Part shown: positions 5,531 through 14,286 of the stretch, in pieces
Layout: the number at the start of each line of letters is the position of its first letter
How positions within the stretch are numbered: position 1 is the first letter of the stretch
DNA from: a virus
Reading direction: 5' to 3' (one strand)
IMG/VR virus record: IMGVR_UViG_3300004181_000004
Coordinates: 1-36,051 of that record
Length of the DNA stretch: 36,051 bases
The notes under the pieces: model-generated
Databases searched by the model: none
What the model was told of the DNA's origin: nothing
The model's input: the letters and a program-made list of their open reading frames with translations, nothing else
Position numbers and translations under genes: made by a program

Positions 5531-5968
5531 TCAATGAGCTGGATCAAAGCCGTGGTTTATATGCAATTTGGGGCCTTCGAGGATGCCTGCTTCAGTTTCT
5601 GCTGTAATGCTAAAATATTTACAGGTTGGAGATATCTCCACACCATTGATGGTTACACCCGCCATCAGCATTGCATGTTTTGAATTGAGGTGATTCCCTT
5701 TGGTTATTAATTCGTCAATATCGCTCATGTCAGGCCGTAATTCAGCAAGGACTAGACCGTCGTCGCGAGTAATTTTTAATACCAGAGAGTTAAAGGGTTT
5801 ATCGGTATTTTGAACGACCCAAACGTAAAGGCATAGCCGCTGAAGAATAACGGGGAGCGCAGATTCTATCGTTAATCCTGCAGTATATACCCCCATAAAT
5901 GAAGGCTTATTGCCAACCTCTTGCCTGATATCATCGCACCAAATTGCATGAACATAACTGTCAGTCAT
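5531..5968 (-). CDS. DUF6941-like protein, third gene of a toxin-antitoxin operon
   Basis: A 145-aa soluble protein. Its N-terminus (SYVHAIWCDDIRQEVGNKPSFMGVYTAGL) has the signature I associate with the DUF6941 family: a conserved CDDIRxEVGxKxSxxGVY near the start, then a beta-sandwich-like body. Function of that family is not known to me. The ATG overlaps the antitoxin stop by 8 bases (ATGACTGA), so it is translated with the toxin-antitoxin pair. The product could modulate the pair or be an independent accessory protein. Confidence 0.65.
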   Translation of the reverse strand: MTDSYVHAIWCDDIRQEVGNKPSFMGVYTAGLTIESALPVILQRLCLYVWVVQNTDKPFNSLVLKITRDDGLVLAELRPDMSDIDELITKGNHLNSKHAMLMAGVTINGVEISPTCKYFSITAETEAGILEGPKLHINHGFDPAH

Positions 5969-6506
5969 GGGATGTTTCCGATTGAGAAATGTGGCGAGAA
6001 TTTCCCCATGCTTCTAAAAATAGATCAAGATTTATATTCATCGCTTTGGCCATCTTAGCAGCAATGGTTATCGATGGTTCGTGCTTGCCAGATTCATAAC
6101 GCGAAACATGGGGTTGTTCAATGCCGCAGCTTTCCGCAATCTGGCGTTGAGATAGTCCTGCGGCTAGGCGTAATGAAGCTAAAGTTGGGGCGGCATCTTT
6201 ATAGAATGTGTCGGCCACCCACTTTCGCCCTTCGCTAAGTTGATTTGCCTCAGCCGTGTCGTGCTCTAAAGATTCGACAAGTTTATCGAATTCTGAAAAA
6301 GACGCTGTATCTGATTTAAGAGAGGGAGTAACCTCAAAAGAATAAATTTTACATTTCTCTGTATTGGCTTGAGAACCGGCTAAATTTTTATGAATTAGCT
6401 TATTTTCTCCATCTGATCTCCATACAGATATTGTATTAAGCGTTGGGAAATTCTTCTCTGACTCTTTTAATAATGCGAGCCCTGATAGGGCTATTTGTGT
6501 CGTCAT
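5961..6506 (-). CDS. XRE-family antitoxin
   Basis: A 181-aa protein with a C-terminal helix-turn-helix (about 108-165: LASLRLAAGLSQRQIAESCG, then EQPHVSRYESGKHEPSITIAAKMAKAMNINLDLFLEA). The roughly 100-residue N-terminal part is longer than in a minimal HigA antitoxin and is probably the toxin-binding portion. The start at 6506 has GAGGAAAC 7 bases upstream, but it lies 71 bases inside the toxin gene, an unusually long overlap. Expected to neutralise the upstream toxin and repress the operon. Confidence 0.8.
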   Translation of the reverse strand: MTTQIALSGLALLKESEKNFPTLNTISVWRSDGENKLIHKNLAGSQANTEKCKIYSFEVTPSLKSDTASFSEFDKLVESLEHDTAEANQLSEGRKWVADTFYKDAAPTLASLRLAAGLSQRQIAESCGIEQPHVSRYESGKHEPSITIAAKMAKAMNINLDLFLEAWGNSRHISQSETSHD

Positions 6507-8146: not shown

Positions 8147-8899
8147 TTATTCCGGCAATCCTGAGAATATCACCACGCCACATACAATCATATCCTCGGT
8201 GATCTCCTGCATCTTATATTGTTGGTTGAGCGGTTTCAGGTAGCGCAGCCCACCATCTTCCCTGTATTCCTTAAATGTCGCTTCGTTGATTCCCGGCAAC
8301 TTGGCGATGACGCGACAGCCATTGGTGATGGGGCGATCGGGGTCGACAAAGATGAGGGTGCCTTCTGGGTAGCTTTTCTGTCCTGGTATGGAGTTGGTCA
8401 TGGAGTCGCCGTTTACCCGTAGGCAATAGGTATGAGGGCCGTGTAACACGGGGCATGGTAGCCATACTTCAGCATCTCCGACGTGATATAGGTCAATGGC
8501 TTCGCACCATCTTCCTGCCTGTACCCAGCTGATTAGTGGAACTGTACCTCGAATATCAGGTCCCGGCTCAGTATTTTCCTGTTCCTGTGGTTGGTATTTG
8601 GCTTCCGCTTTACTTTCACATGCCTCATCAGTCTGTTTATGCGTGCTTCTGGAGGGATCCATTTTTTGCCCCATCCCAGTAATCAGCCAATTTATGCTGT
8701 AGTGCGTTATTTCTGAGACGATAAGTAGGTTTTCTGTGCTTATCCTGCCTGTGTTGAACCATCCTGTTATCGATTGTGGTTCGATATTGCATCGCGCGGC
8801 AACGTCTCGCTGCCCCCCACGCCCTAACGATTGTATTGCTTCCTTTACTCTTCTTCCGATCGCAAGCTGTTCTGAAGTTGGCGGTTTCTTTTTAGGCAT
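8147..8899 (-). CDS. CI/LexA-like prophage repressor with S24 autoprotease domain
   Basis: Maintains lysogeny and is expected to cleave itself after RecA activation. With the start at ATG 8899 (MPKKKPPTSEQLAIGRR) it has 250 residues: an XRE-like DNA-binding domain (about 10-75), an acidic linker, and an S24 domain with the Ala128-Gly129 scissile pair (QAGRW), Ser166 (GDSMTN) and Lys200 (VIAKLPG). The frame is open to 8983, but that would read through the operators; ATG 8917 is also possible. No clear ribosome site is seen for either. The gene faces cro across the operator region. Confidence 0.9.
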   Translation of the reverse strand: MPKKKPPTSEQLAIGRRVKEAIQSLGRGGQRDVAARCNIEPQSITGWFNTGRISTENLLIVSEITHYSINWLITGMGQKMDPSRSTHKQTDEACESKAEAKYQPQEQENTEPGPDIRGTVPLISWVQAGRWCEAIDLYHVGDAEVWLPCPVLHGPHTYCLRVNGDSMTNSIPGQKSYPEGTLIFVDPDRPITNGCRVIAKLPGINEATFKEYREDGGLRYLKPLNQQYKMQEITEDMIVCGVVIFSGLPE

Positions 8900-8972
8900 T
8901 GCTTTAGGGTAAAACATTTTGAATGCTTTTTTAATAAGGCTATGCCTTGACTCACAATGAAGGCTATGCTTT
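8893..8972. promoter_or_regulatory. Right operators OR (two strong sites, one over the repressor start)
   Basis: AAGGCTATGCCTT (8936-8948) and AAGGCTATGCTTT (8960-8972) have centres 24 bases apart and overlap the -35 and the spacer/-10 of PR. TAGGCATTGCTTT (8893-8905) has the same pattern 43 bases from the nearer site and covers the predicted repressor start codon. The arrangement mirrors the left operators and suggests repression of cro plus negative autoregulation. Confidence 0.75.
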
Positions 8973-8975
8973 AAT
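8947..8975 (+). promoter_or_regulatory. Rightward early promoter PR
   Basis: TTGACT (8947-8952) and TTTAAT (8970-8975) are separated by exactly 17 bases. The expected start, 6-7 bases after the -10, falls on the A of the Cro-like ATG at 8982, so the message is probably leaderless. Confidence 0.8.
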
Positions 8976-8981
8976 TTTCGC

Positions 8982-9182
8982 ATGATAGAAACCTATGTAA
9001 GTAAATACCCTACAAAAGCGGCCTTTTGCCGTGATGTCGGTCTTTGTCAGCAATATCTGAACCAGATAGAAAAGGGCAAAAGACCGATCCCACCAAAAGT
9101 CTGTAATGCATTGGAAAAAAAATTCGGGGCCGACAAGAAAAAGCTTAGGCCCGATATTTTTGGCGACTCCGAACAGGAATAA
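8982..9182 (+). CDS. Cro-like regulator (YdaS-type)
   Basis: A 66-aa helix-turn-helix protein: MIETYVSKYPTKAAFCRDVG, LCQQYLNQIEKGKRPIPPKV, ALEKKFGADKKKLRPDIFG. It resembles the Cro/YdaS small regulators found opposite CI-type repressors and should bind the same operators to favour the lytic course. No Shine-Dalgarno precedes the ATG, which coincides with the predicted PR start site, implying leaderless translation. A strong terminator follows about 100 bases after its stop. Confidence 0.85.
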   Translation: MIETYVSKYPTKAAFCRDVGLCQQYLNQIEKGKRPIPPKVCNALEKKFGADKKKLRPDIFGDSEQE

Positions 9183-9283
9183 GTTGCATGATCAATCACA
9201 GCCGCCGCCTCCCGTCACAGAATGCACTCAACCTCAATGGGCGGATGGCTGTGTCAATTTCAGATGTGCCTCTGAAAGCCAGT

Positions 9284-9314
9284 GCCGCGCCCGACCAGGG
9301 GCGCGGCTTTTTTT
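9284..9314 (+). terminator. Strong Rho-independent terminator after the cro-like gene
   Basis: GCCGCGCCC (9284-9292) pairs with GGGCGCGGC (9299-9307), followed by seven T's. It sits where lambda tR1 sits, so downstream early genes need antitermination or their own promoter. A 64-aa frame across it is not considered coding. Confidence 0.9.
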
Positions 9315-9354
9315 GGCGCCACAAAGGCAGTATCTCCCATAAACACAGAAATGT

Positions 9355-9374
9355 ATTCCGTGCCAGCACGGAAT
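9355..9374. promoter_or_regulatory. 20-bp perfect palindrome upstream of the CII-like gene
   Basis: ATTCCGTGC and GCACGGAAT flank a 2-base centre, 29 bases before the ATG at 9403. With such a short loop a DNA operator is more likely than an RNA hairpin. It does not match the repressor operators, so another regulator is implied. Confidence 0.55.
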
Positions 9375-9402
9375 TATATTAAGTTTGGTTTAAGGTGACA
9401 AC

Positions 9403-10002
9403 ATGAAGACTCAGTTGAACAAGACGCTGCCGCAGATTATCGAGCAACACTTGCTGCAGCTTCAGCACGAAACCGGGATGTCCGGCGCGGCGTTTACGGC
9501 GAGCGTGCGCGAGCATTACGAAAGCGCTTATCCGGAGCATGCGCGGCATATCGAGTGGTCGAGTGTGCGCGATGTGGCAACACGGATGACGCGCGATTAT
9601 GACCGGCTGAAAAGCTGGACGGGGCTGGATGCCAAGGTGCGTTTCCCGCTGGAGGTGCTGGAGTCTGTTGTCGCCGCCTTCCCAGCCGAGCGGAGGTTTA
9701 AGTTGCAACTGGAGCTGGCCGCGCGCCAGGGCATGATGGCGATCCCGATGCCGGCCGGTAACCTTTCGGACGATGGCGTATGCCTGGGACAAATTGCCAA
9801 GGAAACGGGCGAAGCGATTATCGCGATTTCTAAGATGTTTGAAGGCGGCACGATATCCGGCGACAAGTCGAGCGGCCGCGAGGCGGTGCGTGAGATCGAC
9901 GAGGCTATCGCGGTGCTGGCCGGCATGAAGGCGATTATCGCGAATAAGTCGCTCGGGCAGTTGTTTGCGGCATTTGCGATGGATGAGGCGATCGGTAAGT
10001 GA
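9403..10002 (+). CDS. CII-like phage regulatory protein (Phage_CP76 type)
   Basis: A 199-aa protein with ribosome site AAGGTGA. The N-terminal half is helical with a possible helix-turn-helix (SSVRDVATRMTRDYDRLKSWTG). The C-terminal half (IPMPAGNLSDDGVCLGQIAK, then ETGEAIIAISKMFEGGTISG and EAVREIDEAIAVLAGMKAII) matches the style of the CP76/CII-like family, in which a helical pair follows a linker. It is the first gene after the early terminator, the place of cII in lambda. Family assignment is by recognition of pattern and is moderate. Confidence 0.6.
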   Translation: MKTQLNKTLPQIIEQHLLQLQHETGMSGAAFTASVREHYESAYPEHARHIEWSSVRDVATRMTRDYDRLKSWTGLDAKVRFPLEVLESVVAAFPAERRFKLQLELAARQGMMAIPMPAGNLSDDGVCLGQIAKETGEAIIAISKMFEGGTISGDKSSGREAVREIDEAIAVLAGMKAIIANKSLGQLFAAFAMDEAIGK

Positions 10003-11554: not shown

Positions 11555-12927
11555 ATGCGCCGGCGTTGATGACGCCGCCGAATTCGCCGCTGGCGGAACA
11601 GGGCGTGATCGGCGGGCTGCTGATGGATAACAAGGCCTGGCCGAAGGTGGCCGGTCTAATCCGGTTCAGCGATTTTTACCAGAAGAAGCATCAGACGATT
11701 TTTCACGCGATCGGCAAGCTGTTGGCCGACGGCGAGCCGGCCGATGTGATCACGGTGCACGAGCTGCTGGAACGCAAGGGCAAGGCCGCGGATGTGGGCG
11801 GCTTGCAGTATTTGGGCCTGTTGGCCCGCGATACGCCGAGCGCGGCGAATATCGGCAGCTACGCGCAGATCGTGCGCGATAAGTCGACGCTGCGGCAGAT
11901 GCTGGAGCTATCCGGCCTGTTCCGCGAGCTGGCGACCGATCCCGGTGCGGAGGCGAAAACGGCGCTGGAGAAGGCCGAGAAGGCGGTGTTCGAACTGGCC
12001 CAGCGGGATCTGCGCGGCAAGAAAGGGTTTTCGCGGCTCCGCGATATTTTGCGGGAGGTGCTGGATGTGGCCGAGAAGAATTTCGAGCGCCCCGCCAGCG
12101 GTGTGCTGGGAATTTCGAGCGGCTACCGCGATCTGGACAAGTTGACTTCGGGGTTTAATCCGGGCGATCTGATCATTGTCGCGGGCCGGCCGGCGATGGG
12201 CAAGTCGACGCTGGCGGTAAACATCGGCGAGGCCTCGGCGATGGCCGGCATGCCGGTCGCGATATTCAGTCTGGAAATGCCGGATGTGCAGCTGGGCCAG
12301 CGGATCCTCGCCAGCAATTCGAACGTGCCGATGCGCAAGATCCGAGAGAGTTGGACGCTGGATGACAGCGATTGGCCGTTACTGTCTGCCGGTATATTGA
12401 AAACGAACGAGTGGCCGTTCTTTGTGGACGAGACCCCTGCCCTGTCGCTGTCGGAGATCCGCGCGCGGGTGATGAAGCTGAACATGGAGATCGGCGACGA
12501 TCATCCGGATGGCGTGGGGATGGTAATCATCGACTATCTGCAGCTGATGAGTTCGGATACGGACGGCAATCGGAACAGCGAGATCGAGGAGATCACGCGC
12601 GGATTGAAGCGGATGGCGAAGGAGTTCGGCATTCCGGTGATTGCGCTGTCGCAGCTGAACCGGGGGCTGGAAAACCGGCCTAACAAGCGGCCGCAGATGT
12701 CGGATCTGCGCGATTCCGGCGCGATCGAGCAGGATGCGGATATCGTGCTGTTTGTGTATCGAGACGAGGTTTACAACAAGGACAGCGCCGACCAGGGCAT
12801 CGCCGAGGTGATTGTCGGCAAACAGCGGAATGGGCCGCTAGGAACCGTTAGGCTGCAGTTCGATGGGGCGTGTACGCGGTTCCGTAGTTTGGAGGGGTCG
12901 CGTGAATATTCTTATGCAGGTTATTAG
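11551..12927 (+). CDS. dnaB: Replicative DNA helicase DnaB
   Basis: A 458-aa phage-encoded hexameric 5'-3' helicase, the usual length for DnaB. The N-terminal domain (PPNSPLAEQGVIGGLLMDNK, about 9-110) is followed by a linker and the RecA-like domain: Walker A GRPAMGKST (about 211-219), Walker B GMVIIDYLQLM, the motif SEIEEITRGLKRMAKE, and LSQLNRGLENRPNKRPQMSD with the arginine-finger region. It anchors the replication module together with the DnaT-like gene downstream. Confidence 0.95.
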   Translation: MNAPALMTPPNSPLAEQGVIGGLLMDNKAWPKVAGLIRFSDFYQKKHQTIFHAIGKLLADGEPADVITVHELLERKGKAADVGGLQYLGLLARDTPSAANIGSYAQIVRDKSTLRQMLELSGLFRELATDPGAEAKTALEKAEKAVFELAQRDLRGKKGFSRLRDILREVLDVAEKNFERPASGVLGISSGYRDLDKLTSGFNPGDLIIVAGRPAMGKSTLAVNIGEASAMAGMPVAIFSLEMPDVQLGQRILASNSNVPMRKIRESWTLDDSDWPLLSAGILKTNEWPFFVDETPALSLSEIRARVMKLNMEIGDDHPDGVGMVIIDYLQLMSSDTDGNRNSEIEEITRGLKRMAKEFGIPVIALSQLNRGLENRPNKRPQMSDLRDSGAIEQDADIVLFVYRDEVYNKDSADQGIAEVIVGKQRNGPLGTVRLQFDGACTRFRSLEGSREYSYAGY

Positions 12928-12941
12928 GATTTAGCAAAATG

Positions 12942-12971
12942 TTGACAGTTGCCTGGACTATGGATGATACT
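12942..12971 (+). promoter_or_regulatory. Probable promoter of the Ash/C4/RadC module
   Basis: A perfect TTGACA (12942-12947), 17-18 bases before TGATACT (12965-12971), whose GATACT matches four of six -10 bases. It lies just after dnaB and would start the transcript that holds the C4-like RNA. Confidence 0.5.
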
Positions 12972-13080
12972 TTACCCGCTGCCCTCATTGGCGGCAACGG
13001 GTTTGGTAGCCTGTTCAGCACTGACGCAAGAGCTATGCGTCGCAAGTCGTGTGGCTTTTTTTACGCCCAAAGTCCAGTTA

Positions 13081-13140
13081 TGGCGGGCGTAGTGGGGAGC
13101 CTAACGGCTCGCCGGCTCCAGTGCCCGGTCTACCAACCCG
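13081..13140 (+). ncRNA. C4-type antisense RNA candidate
   Basis: GAGCC-TAAC-GGCTC (13097-13110) forms a short hairpin, with an alternative GGAGCC/GGCTCC pairing (13096-13101 with 13114-13119). It is followed by the CCGGTCTACCAACCC motif (13125-13139). CTACCAA (13130-13136) is exactly complementary to TTGGTAG (13161-13167), about 40 bases before the radC ATG. This resembles the C4 RNA of P1/P7 and CI RNA of P4, which are cut from the leader and pair with the same message downstream. Boundaries are approximate. Confidence 0.55.
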
Positions 13141-13208
13141 CTACGTCCGCCGCCCGGCGTTTGGTAGCTCCGGTCGGCGGTAATAAAACCATAGTACTGG
13201 AGTCAGTC

Positions 13209-13811
13209 ATGAACAATCACGCCCAAGGTGCGCCTGCGCCTACCAGTCCATCAGTTTTTACCCTCCGCGAGTCGAACACGATTCGCAAAGCCCTTTCCAT
13301 TATTGAGGCCAAGCGTCTACGCGATGCGCCTGTGCTCTACTACTTCGAGGATTTCGAGCGTTATCTTGTCCTGCGCTTTGCCGGGTTAGTTCACGAAGAA
13401 TTCCACGTCCTCTACCTAGACAGCGGTAGGCGACTTCTGGCCGCTGAGGTAGCAGCTACCGGCGACCAAAAAAGCGTCAGCCCTAACTATCGGCATATCG
13501 CTTTTCGTGCCATTGGTCTGGGCGCTGACTACGTGGTCGTAGCTCATAATCATCCCAGCGATTCCCAGACTCCATCTGATGCTGATGTGGATGCCCTGCA
13601 GTGGTCAGAAAGAGCTTTAGGCTGGCTAAACATTGGCCTGCTCGACAGCTTTGTCGTAACTTCGCAGGGAATTACCAGCATCAAAAAGTATCGCCAACTT
13701 AAGGAAGAAATGGTGCGCCGTGAGCGCGAAGGGGAATGGGAGCGACGTAGCGAAGAGCGGCGTGCTAAGCTCGCTGCTACCAGAGCCGCAAAGTTAGCGG
13801 CGCAGCTTTAA
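13209..13811 (+). CDS. radC: RadC-family JAB/MPN-domain protein
   Basis: A 200-aa protein from ATG 13209 (MNNHAQGAPAPTSPSVFTLR), with GGAG 6 bases upstream. It has a RadC/JAB metalloprotease-like fold: EEFHVLYLDSGRRLLAAEVA, then the metal-binding HNHPSD motif (VVVAHNHPSDSQTPSDADV, near residue 110) and the SFVVTSQGITSI ending. Many prophage RadC proteins lack the N-terminal HhH region, as here. The C-terminus is a basic, Ala-rich helix. Cellular function of RadC is unsettled. Its position behind a C4-like RNA suggests antisense control. Confidence 0.9.
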   Translation: MNNHAQGAPAPTSPSVFTLRESNTIRKALSIIEAKRLRDAPVLYYFEDFERYLVLRFAGLVHEEFHVLYLDSGRRLLAAEVAATGDQKSVSPNYRHIAFRAIGLGADYVVVAHNHPSDSQTPSDADVDALQWSERALGWLNIGLLDSFVVTSQGITSIKKYRQLKEEMVRREREGEWERRSEERRAKLAATRAAKLAAQL

Positions 13812-13828
13812 ACAGTCATGTAATGGCA

Positions 13829-13853
13829 CGGGCGGAAGAATACTTTTCGCCCG
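13829..13853 (+). terminator. Weak hairpin after radC
   Basis: CGGGCG (13829-13834) pairs with CGCCCG (13848-13853), with partial GAA/TTT extension. No U-run follows, so termination is uncertain. Confidence 0.3.
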
Positions 13854-13866
13854 GCTATTAATAACA

Positions 13867-14286
13867 ATGAGATATAAAACCATGAATAAATTTTTGTTTG
13901 TTTTAACAACAGAAAATAAAACTTTAGAGCAGCTAAGTTTCATAGACAGAATGGTATTTAGGTATTTGGCTGAACATACTGATTATGAGAATGGGATTAT
14001 AGGTGGGCTAGGTTTTTTGAGTTATCAAAACATCGCATTTGATTTAACAGAGAGGCCTCCACAACCAAGGAGGGCAAAGAACACTTTGCTAACTGTACAA
14101 TCGGATGAAGTGAAAGAATCAATATTAGAGCTAGAAAGGGTTGGTCTTATTTTAATTTTGTCTGATTCGAAAGGTTTAAAACTATCAAGGCTTCATTACC
14201 TAAGGTCTTGTAGTGATGAAAGAACTCAAGAGGATTTAAATGATTTGTTAGAGATAAGAAGATTAATCTCGCTACTCCATCAGTGA
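13867..14286 (+). CDS. AT-rich paralog of the DnaT-like N-terminal domain
   Basis: A 139-aa protein. The segment FIDRMVFRYLAEHTDYENGI, then GFLSYQNIAFDLTERPPQ and VKESILELERVGLILI, aligns with the first 110 residues of the next gene (PLDRDVFHYLMDRMDFKTGV, ISYGGIAYDLSED, IRRSVNRLIQAGLLRTE). This is a winged-helix pattern. It lacks the C-terminal ssDNA-binding domain of that neighbour. The DNA is far more AT-rich than flanking genes, suggesting separate origin. Possibly a regulator or partner of the replication protein. The start could be 13867 or ATG 13882. Confidence 0.7.
   Translation: MRYKTMNKFLFVLTTENKTLEQLSFIDRMVFRYLAEHTDYENGIIGGLGFLSYQNIAFDLTERPPQPRRAKNTLLTVQSDEVKESILELERVGLILILSDSKGLKLSRLHYLRSCSDERTQEDLNDLLEIRRLISLLHQ

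Follow-up and report, generated by a model that had tools for sequence, protein, structure and literature searches.

C4 is a phage antisense RNA known for silencing antirepressors. In the window, by which we denote the whole 36,051-nt stretch of viral DNA analyzed here (IMG/VR record IMGVR_UViG_3300004181_000004, positions 1 to 36,051), nucleotides 13076-13157 are a C4 antisense RNA, and across C4 loci both pairings of this RNA covary with each locus's own target. Given this family-wide covariation, C4 most likely represses the adjoining gene, radC, at the level of translation as in P1 and perhaps also by termination as in P4. The module is intact and canonical and belongs to an RNA class with an already known mechanism; the gene it would control is unusual. 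In our view it is highly probable that a self-contained C4 immunity cassette, with radC as its controlled gene, extends from 12928 to about 13870 and was inserted between dnaB and the next replication gene.

Layout of the locus

The following features were assigned in the window:

8147-8983 (-): CI-like S24 repressor of the phage
dnaB, stop at 12927: upstream neighbour of the C4-radC region
12942-12971 (+): predicted sigma-70 promoter of the C4 transcript, TTGACA-18-GATACT; transcription start expected near 12978
12965-13017 (+): upstream target region with hairpins, resembling Rfam c4-a1b1/IsrK; suggestive only, because the RF03163 score of 21.0 bits is under the cut-off of 46.7
13003-13009 (+): upstream target site TTGGTAG, equivalent to P4 seqA; exact complement of 13130-13136
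13076-13157 (+): C4 antisense RNA, Rfam RF01695; mature 5' end expected near GG 13082-13083
13116-13122 (+): C4 hairpin loop CTCCAGT, antisense to the radC Shine-Dalgarno; exact complement of 13196-13202
13130-13136 (+): C4 single-stranded segment CTACCAA, equivalent to P4 seqB; exact complement of both TTGGTAG sites
13161-13167 (+): downstream target site TTGGTAG, equivalent to P4 seqC; complement of CTACCAA
13196-13202 (+): ACTGGAG, radC Shine-Dalgarno and second C4 target site, 6 nt 5' of the ATG
13209-13811 (+): radC, encoding a 200-aa RadC-like JAB (JAMM) protein, Pfam PF04002
13816-13870 (+): strong hairpin 3' of radC (RNA fold -23.7 kcal/mol), without a T run; possible cassette end
13867-14286: 139-aa gene between radC and the DnaT-like gene

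A preliminary description of this DNA had noted a TTGACA promoter downstream of dnaB and a protein repressor elsewhere in the phage, and both were recovered. The promoter-like match TTGACA-18-GATACT occurs once, compared to 0.2 occurrences expected in shuffled sequences, and of 79 non-redundant C4 loci, 65 have their best -10-like element at a fixed distance of about 36-40 nt 5' of seqA. A search for a shared operator yielded no 8-mer common to the repressor region (8984-9403) and the C4 promoter region (12901-13000). The position between dnaB and the DnaT-like gene was given correctly, except that the 139-aa gene separates radC from the latter; the span 12939-13811 is that of an open frame crossing the C4 RNA into radC, and radC proper starts within it.

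Identity and fold of the C4 RNA

The Rfam covariance search that had been proposed as a check matched the C4 model RF01695 with 64.7 bits against a gathering score of 45, the sole Rfam match in the whole window, and the hairpins with the GGTCTACCAACC motif singled out in the preliminary description proved to be part of this structured RNA. The segment folds into the three-stem C4 shape (-47.9 kcal/mol, z -4.55), and compensatory double changes over 51 loci support 10 of 15 consensus stem pairs. C4 may be processed by RNase P at the GG of 13082-13083, which agrees with the GG(W/C) cleavage site known from the literature (PMC5320573).

Covariation of the two pairings

For comparison, C4 loci were gathered with an exact pattern covering the RNA and not its targets, with the outer stem required, which yielded 87 non-redundant loci. 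As the a'/b' nomenclature varies between sources, we name the C4 loops by sequence. The compared loci are related sequences, and the cross-locus control preserves family composition.

The TTGGTAG site predicted just upstream of radC was found at 13161-13167; the second copy upstream of C4, and the perfect complementarity between the CTCCAGT loop and the radC Shine-Dalgarno, had been overlooked in the preliminary description. For the CCAA pairing, target sites were located solely by the invariant TTGG..A. Both variable positions then agree with the locus's own C4 in 75 of 77 loci; when the pairing was permuted 10,000 times, this number averaged 22.5 and did not exceed 38. Seven versions of the segment occur (CTA, CTT, CTG, TTA, TTT, ATG and GTT), each with its own complement, and the upstream site matches its own C4 exactly in 72 of the 73 loci that have TTGGNAN at this place. 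For the Shine-Dalgarno pairing, a complement of at least 7 nt to the C4 loop is present in the locus's own downstream leader in 82% of the 87 non-redundant loci, compared to 3.8% in cross-locus pairs. A Shine-Dalgarno-type site upstream of C4 is not conserved, its complementarity within the locus being no better than across loci.

Both perfect 7-nt pairings of the window are at canonical positions: its downstream site follows 21 nt past the end of the C4 segment that was matched, and its Shine-Dalgarno site and ATG come at +56 and +69. Among 81 non-redundant C4 loci, the start codon is nearly always ATG and falls between +57 and +79, counted from the CCAA segment. The predicted duplex of the window's C4 with its own target amounts to -34.5 kcal/mol, compared to a mean of -20.0 kcal/mol with the targets of other loci. 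As the following gene's Shine-Dalgarno can be predicted from the variable loop, C4 targets can be read from sequence alone; the rule that this loop is the complement of the next gene's Shine-Dalgarno should give access to many of them, and it renders C4 control directly testable.

The frame that is open from 12939 through to radC had been described as Ash-like, and could be taken for an Ash-type leader protein translated through C4, with the RNA features secondary to the coding sequence. This reading is almost certainly wrong, and an Ash protein was rejected as a candidate. The frame, searched with or without radC at E-values up to 0.1, has no match to Phage_ASH in Pfam or NCBIfam; its putative ATG (12939) is just upstream of the -35 hexamer and therefore cannot be on the C4 transcript; among 83 C4 loci, the frame at the Ash position does not stay open more often than the remaining two frames (47, 50 and 53 open); and the covariation tracks base pairing, not codons.

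Proposed mechanism

In P1 and P7, RNase P cuts C4 from the transcript, and C4 then makes the following gene's ribosome-binding site inaccessible (PMC5320573, PMC12197685, PMC8198154), while in P4 an antisense segment pairs with sites on both its sides, which leads to premature termination (PMC4825925). For the window, we propose that the promoter at 12942-12971 drives a single transcript with the upstream target site, the C4 RNA, the downstream target site and radC. C4 would be excised from this transcript, by analogy by RNase P, and act both in cis and in trans: CTACCAA would pair with TTGGTAG at 13161-13167 and at 13003-13009, and the CTCCAGT loop with ACTGGAG, blocking radC translation in the way C4 acts on icd-ant in P1/P7. 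Early termination may add to the effect, as with CI RNA in P4. A lysogen would thus keep RadC switched off, and if a phage with matching specificity entered, its radC mRNA would be silenced in trans as well. RadC would be an early lytic or infection-phase function. Plausibly, C4 may provide the phage with a further level of immunity in addition to the protein repressor.

It is conceivable, but unlikely, that the module acts in P4 fashion only, with pairing of the flanking TTGGTAG sites causing early transcription termination and with radC, the 139-aa gene and the DnaT-like gene as the regulated unit, not radC translation. In line with this, the RNA is flanked by two TTGGTAG copies in the manner of P4 seqA and seqC (PMC4825925), and a DnaT-like replication gene is located downstream. 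However, the loop pairs with the next gene's Shine-Dalgarno in most C4 loci, which termination alone would not need, and the hairpin at 13816-13870 could form a boundary between radC and the later genes. We retain repression of radC translation, with termination as a possible addition, as the preferred reading.

RadC and other predicted C4 targets

The product of radC matches Pfam PF04002 with an E-value of 3e-23 (82.4 bits, threshold 22.1). Its JAMM motif E..HNHPS..SDAD is intact, with E, HNHP and S..D invariant in an alignment with plasmid and phage RadC proteins; it lacks the N-terminal RadC domain and carries a charged C-terminal tail. A role in the processing of nucleic acids or nucleotides has been proposed for RadC domains, with the remark that phages have solo versions of domains of this kind (PMC5512222). 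Close relatives were found neither for the Ash-RadC frame in the viral contigs searched nor for radC in the genome contigs searched.

We assigned Pfam domains to 79 proteins encoded at the controlled position of C4 loci. DUF6124 is found in 19, Bro-N in 9 and DUF3077 in 5 of these, and further antirepressor domains comprise P22_AR_N, AntA, KilA-N, pRha, ORF6N and ANT; PHROGs labels many of the 79 as antirepressors. Up to 24 of the 79 loop-matched genes fall into DUF6124 (19) or DUF3077 (5), families of unknown function, and many of the corresponding C4 loci (L078, L085, L099 and others) are in Pseudomonas genomes. RadC occurs once among the 79, in the window itself, and the earlier claim that the target here is radC and not an antirepressor is supported by the Rfam covariance match and by the family-wide covariation of both pairing sites. 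The antirepressor of the P1/P7 immI operon has no counterpart here: the gene adjoining C4 is radC, and the next two genes match no antirepressor family.

A wider set of 181 C4 loci (121 non-redundant) contained one further RadC target:

L534, IMGVR_UViG_3300012838_000029: C4 at 5917-5999 (73.9 bits), radC at 6045

In this locus, CTTCCAA in C4 faces TTGGAAG on both sides, and the loop CCTTCGG faces CCGAAGG at the radC Shine-Dalgarno. Its RadC is 31% identical to that of the window over the domain and shares with it the charged C-terminal tail, which is absent from the aligned plasmid and phage RadC proteins. The neighbourhood differs and consists of an integrase, an unknown 882-aa frame, the C4-radC pair, an HNH endonuclease and a portal-like protein. 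L534 is a second, independent C4-radC locus with different specificities at both sites; considering the divergence and the different neighbourhood, either C4 acquired RadC as a target on two or more occasions, or the pair moved and diverged greatly.

Among the loci compared, RadC as a C4 target is rare, being confined to the window phage and L534. A coordinate comparison found no RadC adjoining the C4s listed in 29 and in 74 C4-bearing genomes, and no C4 was found beside the 80 nearest viral RadC loci, 20 of which were run against Rfam. In the literature searched, which was itself limited in coverage, we did not find radC described as a C4 target. With two cases, this rarity could be taken to mean that the module may be broken or recently re-targeted; against this, both pairings in the window are perfect.

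If C4 also silences radC, phages treat a RadC-like protein as one that needs an off state during lysogeny, which would bear on the long-disputed function of RadC. Tentatively, C4 could be regarded as a portable silencing cassette with its variable loop re-fitted to the Shine-Dalgarno of each gene it precedes, and the RadC-like JAB protein as a recurrent infection-phase payload. Such a protein might counteract host defence or act on incoming DNA, and the RNA would silence it both in the lysogen, which must keep it off, and in a sibling phage that superinfects; we see this as possible, with the odds rather against it.

Origin of the cassette

The nearest phage relatives by dnaB (L311, L312 and L313, 53-55% identity) have the DnaT-like gene directly 3' of dnaB, with neither C4 nor radC. 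The 139-aa gene and the DnaT-like protein, in its N-terminal part, are paralogous (36%), and the gene is AT-rich, with a GC content of 33.6% compared to 60.8% for dnaB. Given these relatives without C4-radC and this AT-rich paralogue, the region 12928-14286 is most simply interpreted as an inserted cassette. At the DNA level, no relatives of the cassette were found in phages, and the only match was a short one of 76% in Arsenophonus plasmids. In two more distant dnaB relatives, L360 (1372-1469) and L337 (1641-1732), a C4-like RNA lies about 1.5 kb upstream of dnaB, a place different from that in the window.

An insertion with a composition unlike its neighbours, together with the frequency of antirepressor families among C4 targets, would also fit a relic, in which C4 and its sites were kept from an antirepressor-targeting ancestor and radC moved in unregulated. 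This is very unlikely: the 7 nt complementary to the loop fall directly on the Shine-Dalgarno of radC at normal spacing, L534 shows the same pairing with different sequences, and no part of the module is degraded. A functional cassette with radC under C4 control remains the favoured interpretation.

Comparison with known RNA systems

The window RNA shares with P1/P7 C4 the covariance model RF01695, the three-stem fold, and loops that complement the leader and the ribosome-binding site of the next gene on the same transcript (PMC5320573, PMC8198154, PMC12197685). It differs from P1/P7 in that the next gene is radC instead of icd-ant, and in having CCAA-complement sites on both sides of the RNA. 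In P4, RNA replaces a protein repressor and the replication operon is controlled by termination, whereas the window phage has the CI-like S24 repressor and radC is the gene adjoining C4. Common to the window and P4 CI RNA are the complementary sites up- and downstream in its own transcript (PMC4825925) and a promoter just upstream. The label P4-type in the preliminary description is thus apt for the sites on both sides, but not for the Shine-Dalgarno pairing, which is P1/P7-like; the window carries sequence signatures of both mechanisms.

In IsrK and c4-a1b1 of the Gifsy-1 prophage, too, hairpins in the leader precede a processed RNA on the same transcript, but the window scores 15.2 bits with RF01394 and 21.0 bits with RF03163, below the cut-offs. 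The radC RNA motif (RF01754), a structured RNA that owes its name to proteobacterial radC genes and is given as a motif separate from C4 (PMC2864571), was considered and rejected, with no match in 12800-13400 even at E-values up to 1. Group 1 C4-like sRNAs of Acinetobacter baumannii have the C4 fold and a variable loop and are cut from longer transcripts (PMC5320573); they are dispersed host sRNAs with unknown targets, whereas the target in the window is adjacent and identified by complementarity. Resembling these sRNAs, dispersed or tandem C4-like RNAs occur in three further genomes: one Chromobacterium genome (L159, G004) has 35 C4 matches across the genome, G280 has 10, and G267:C9:1700-3092 contains several tandem matches a few hundred bases apart.
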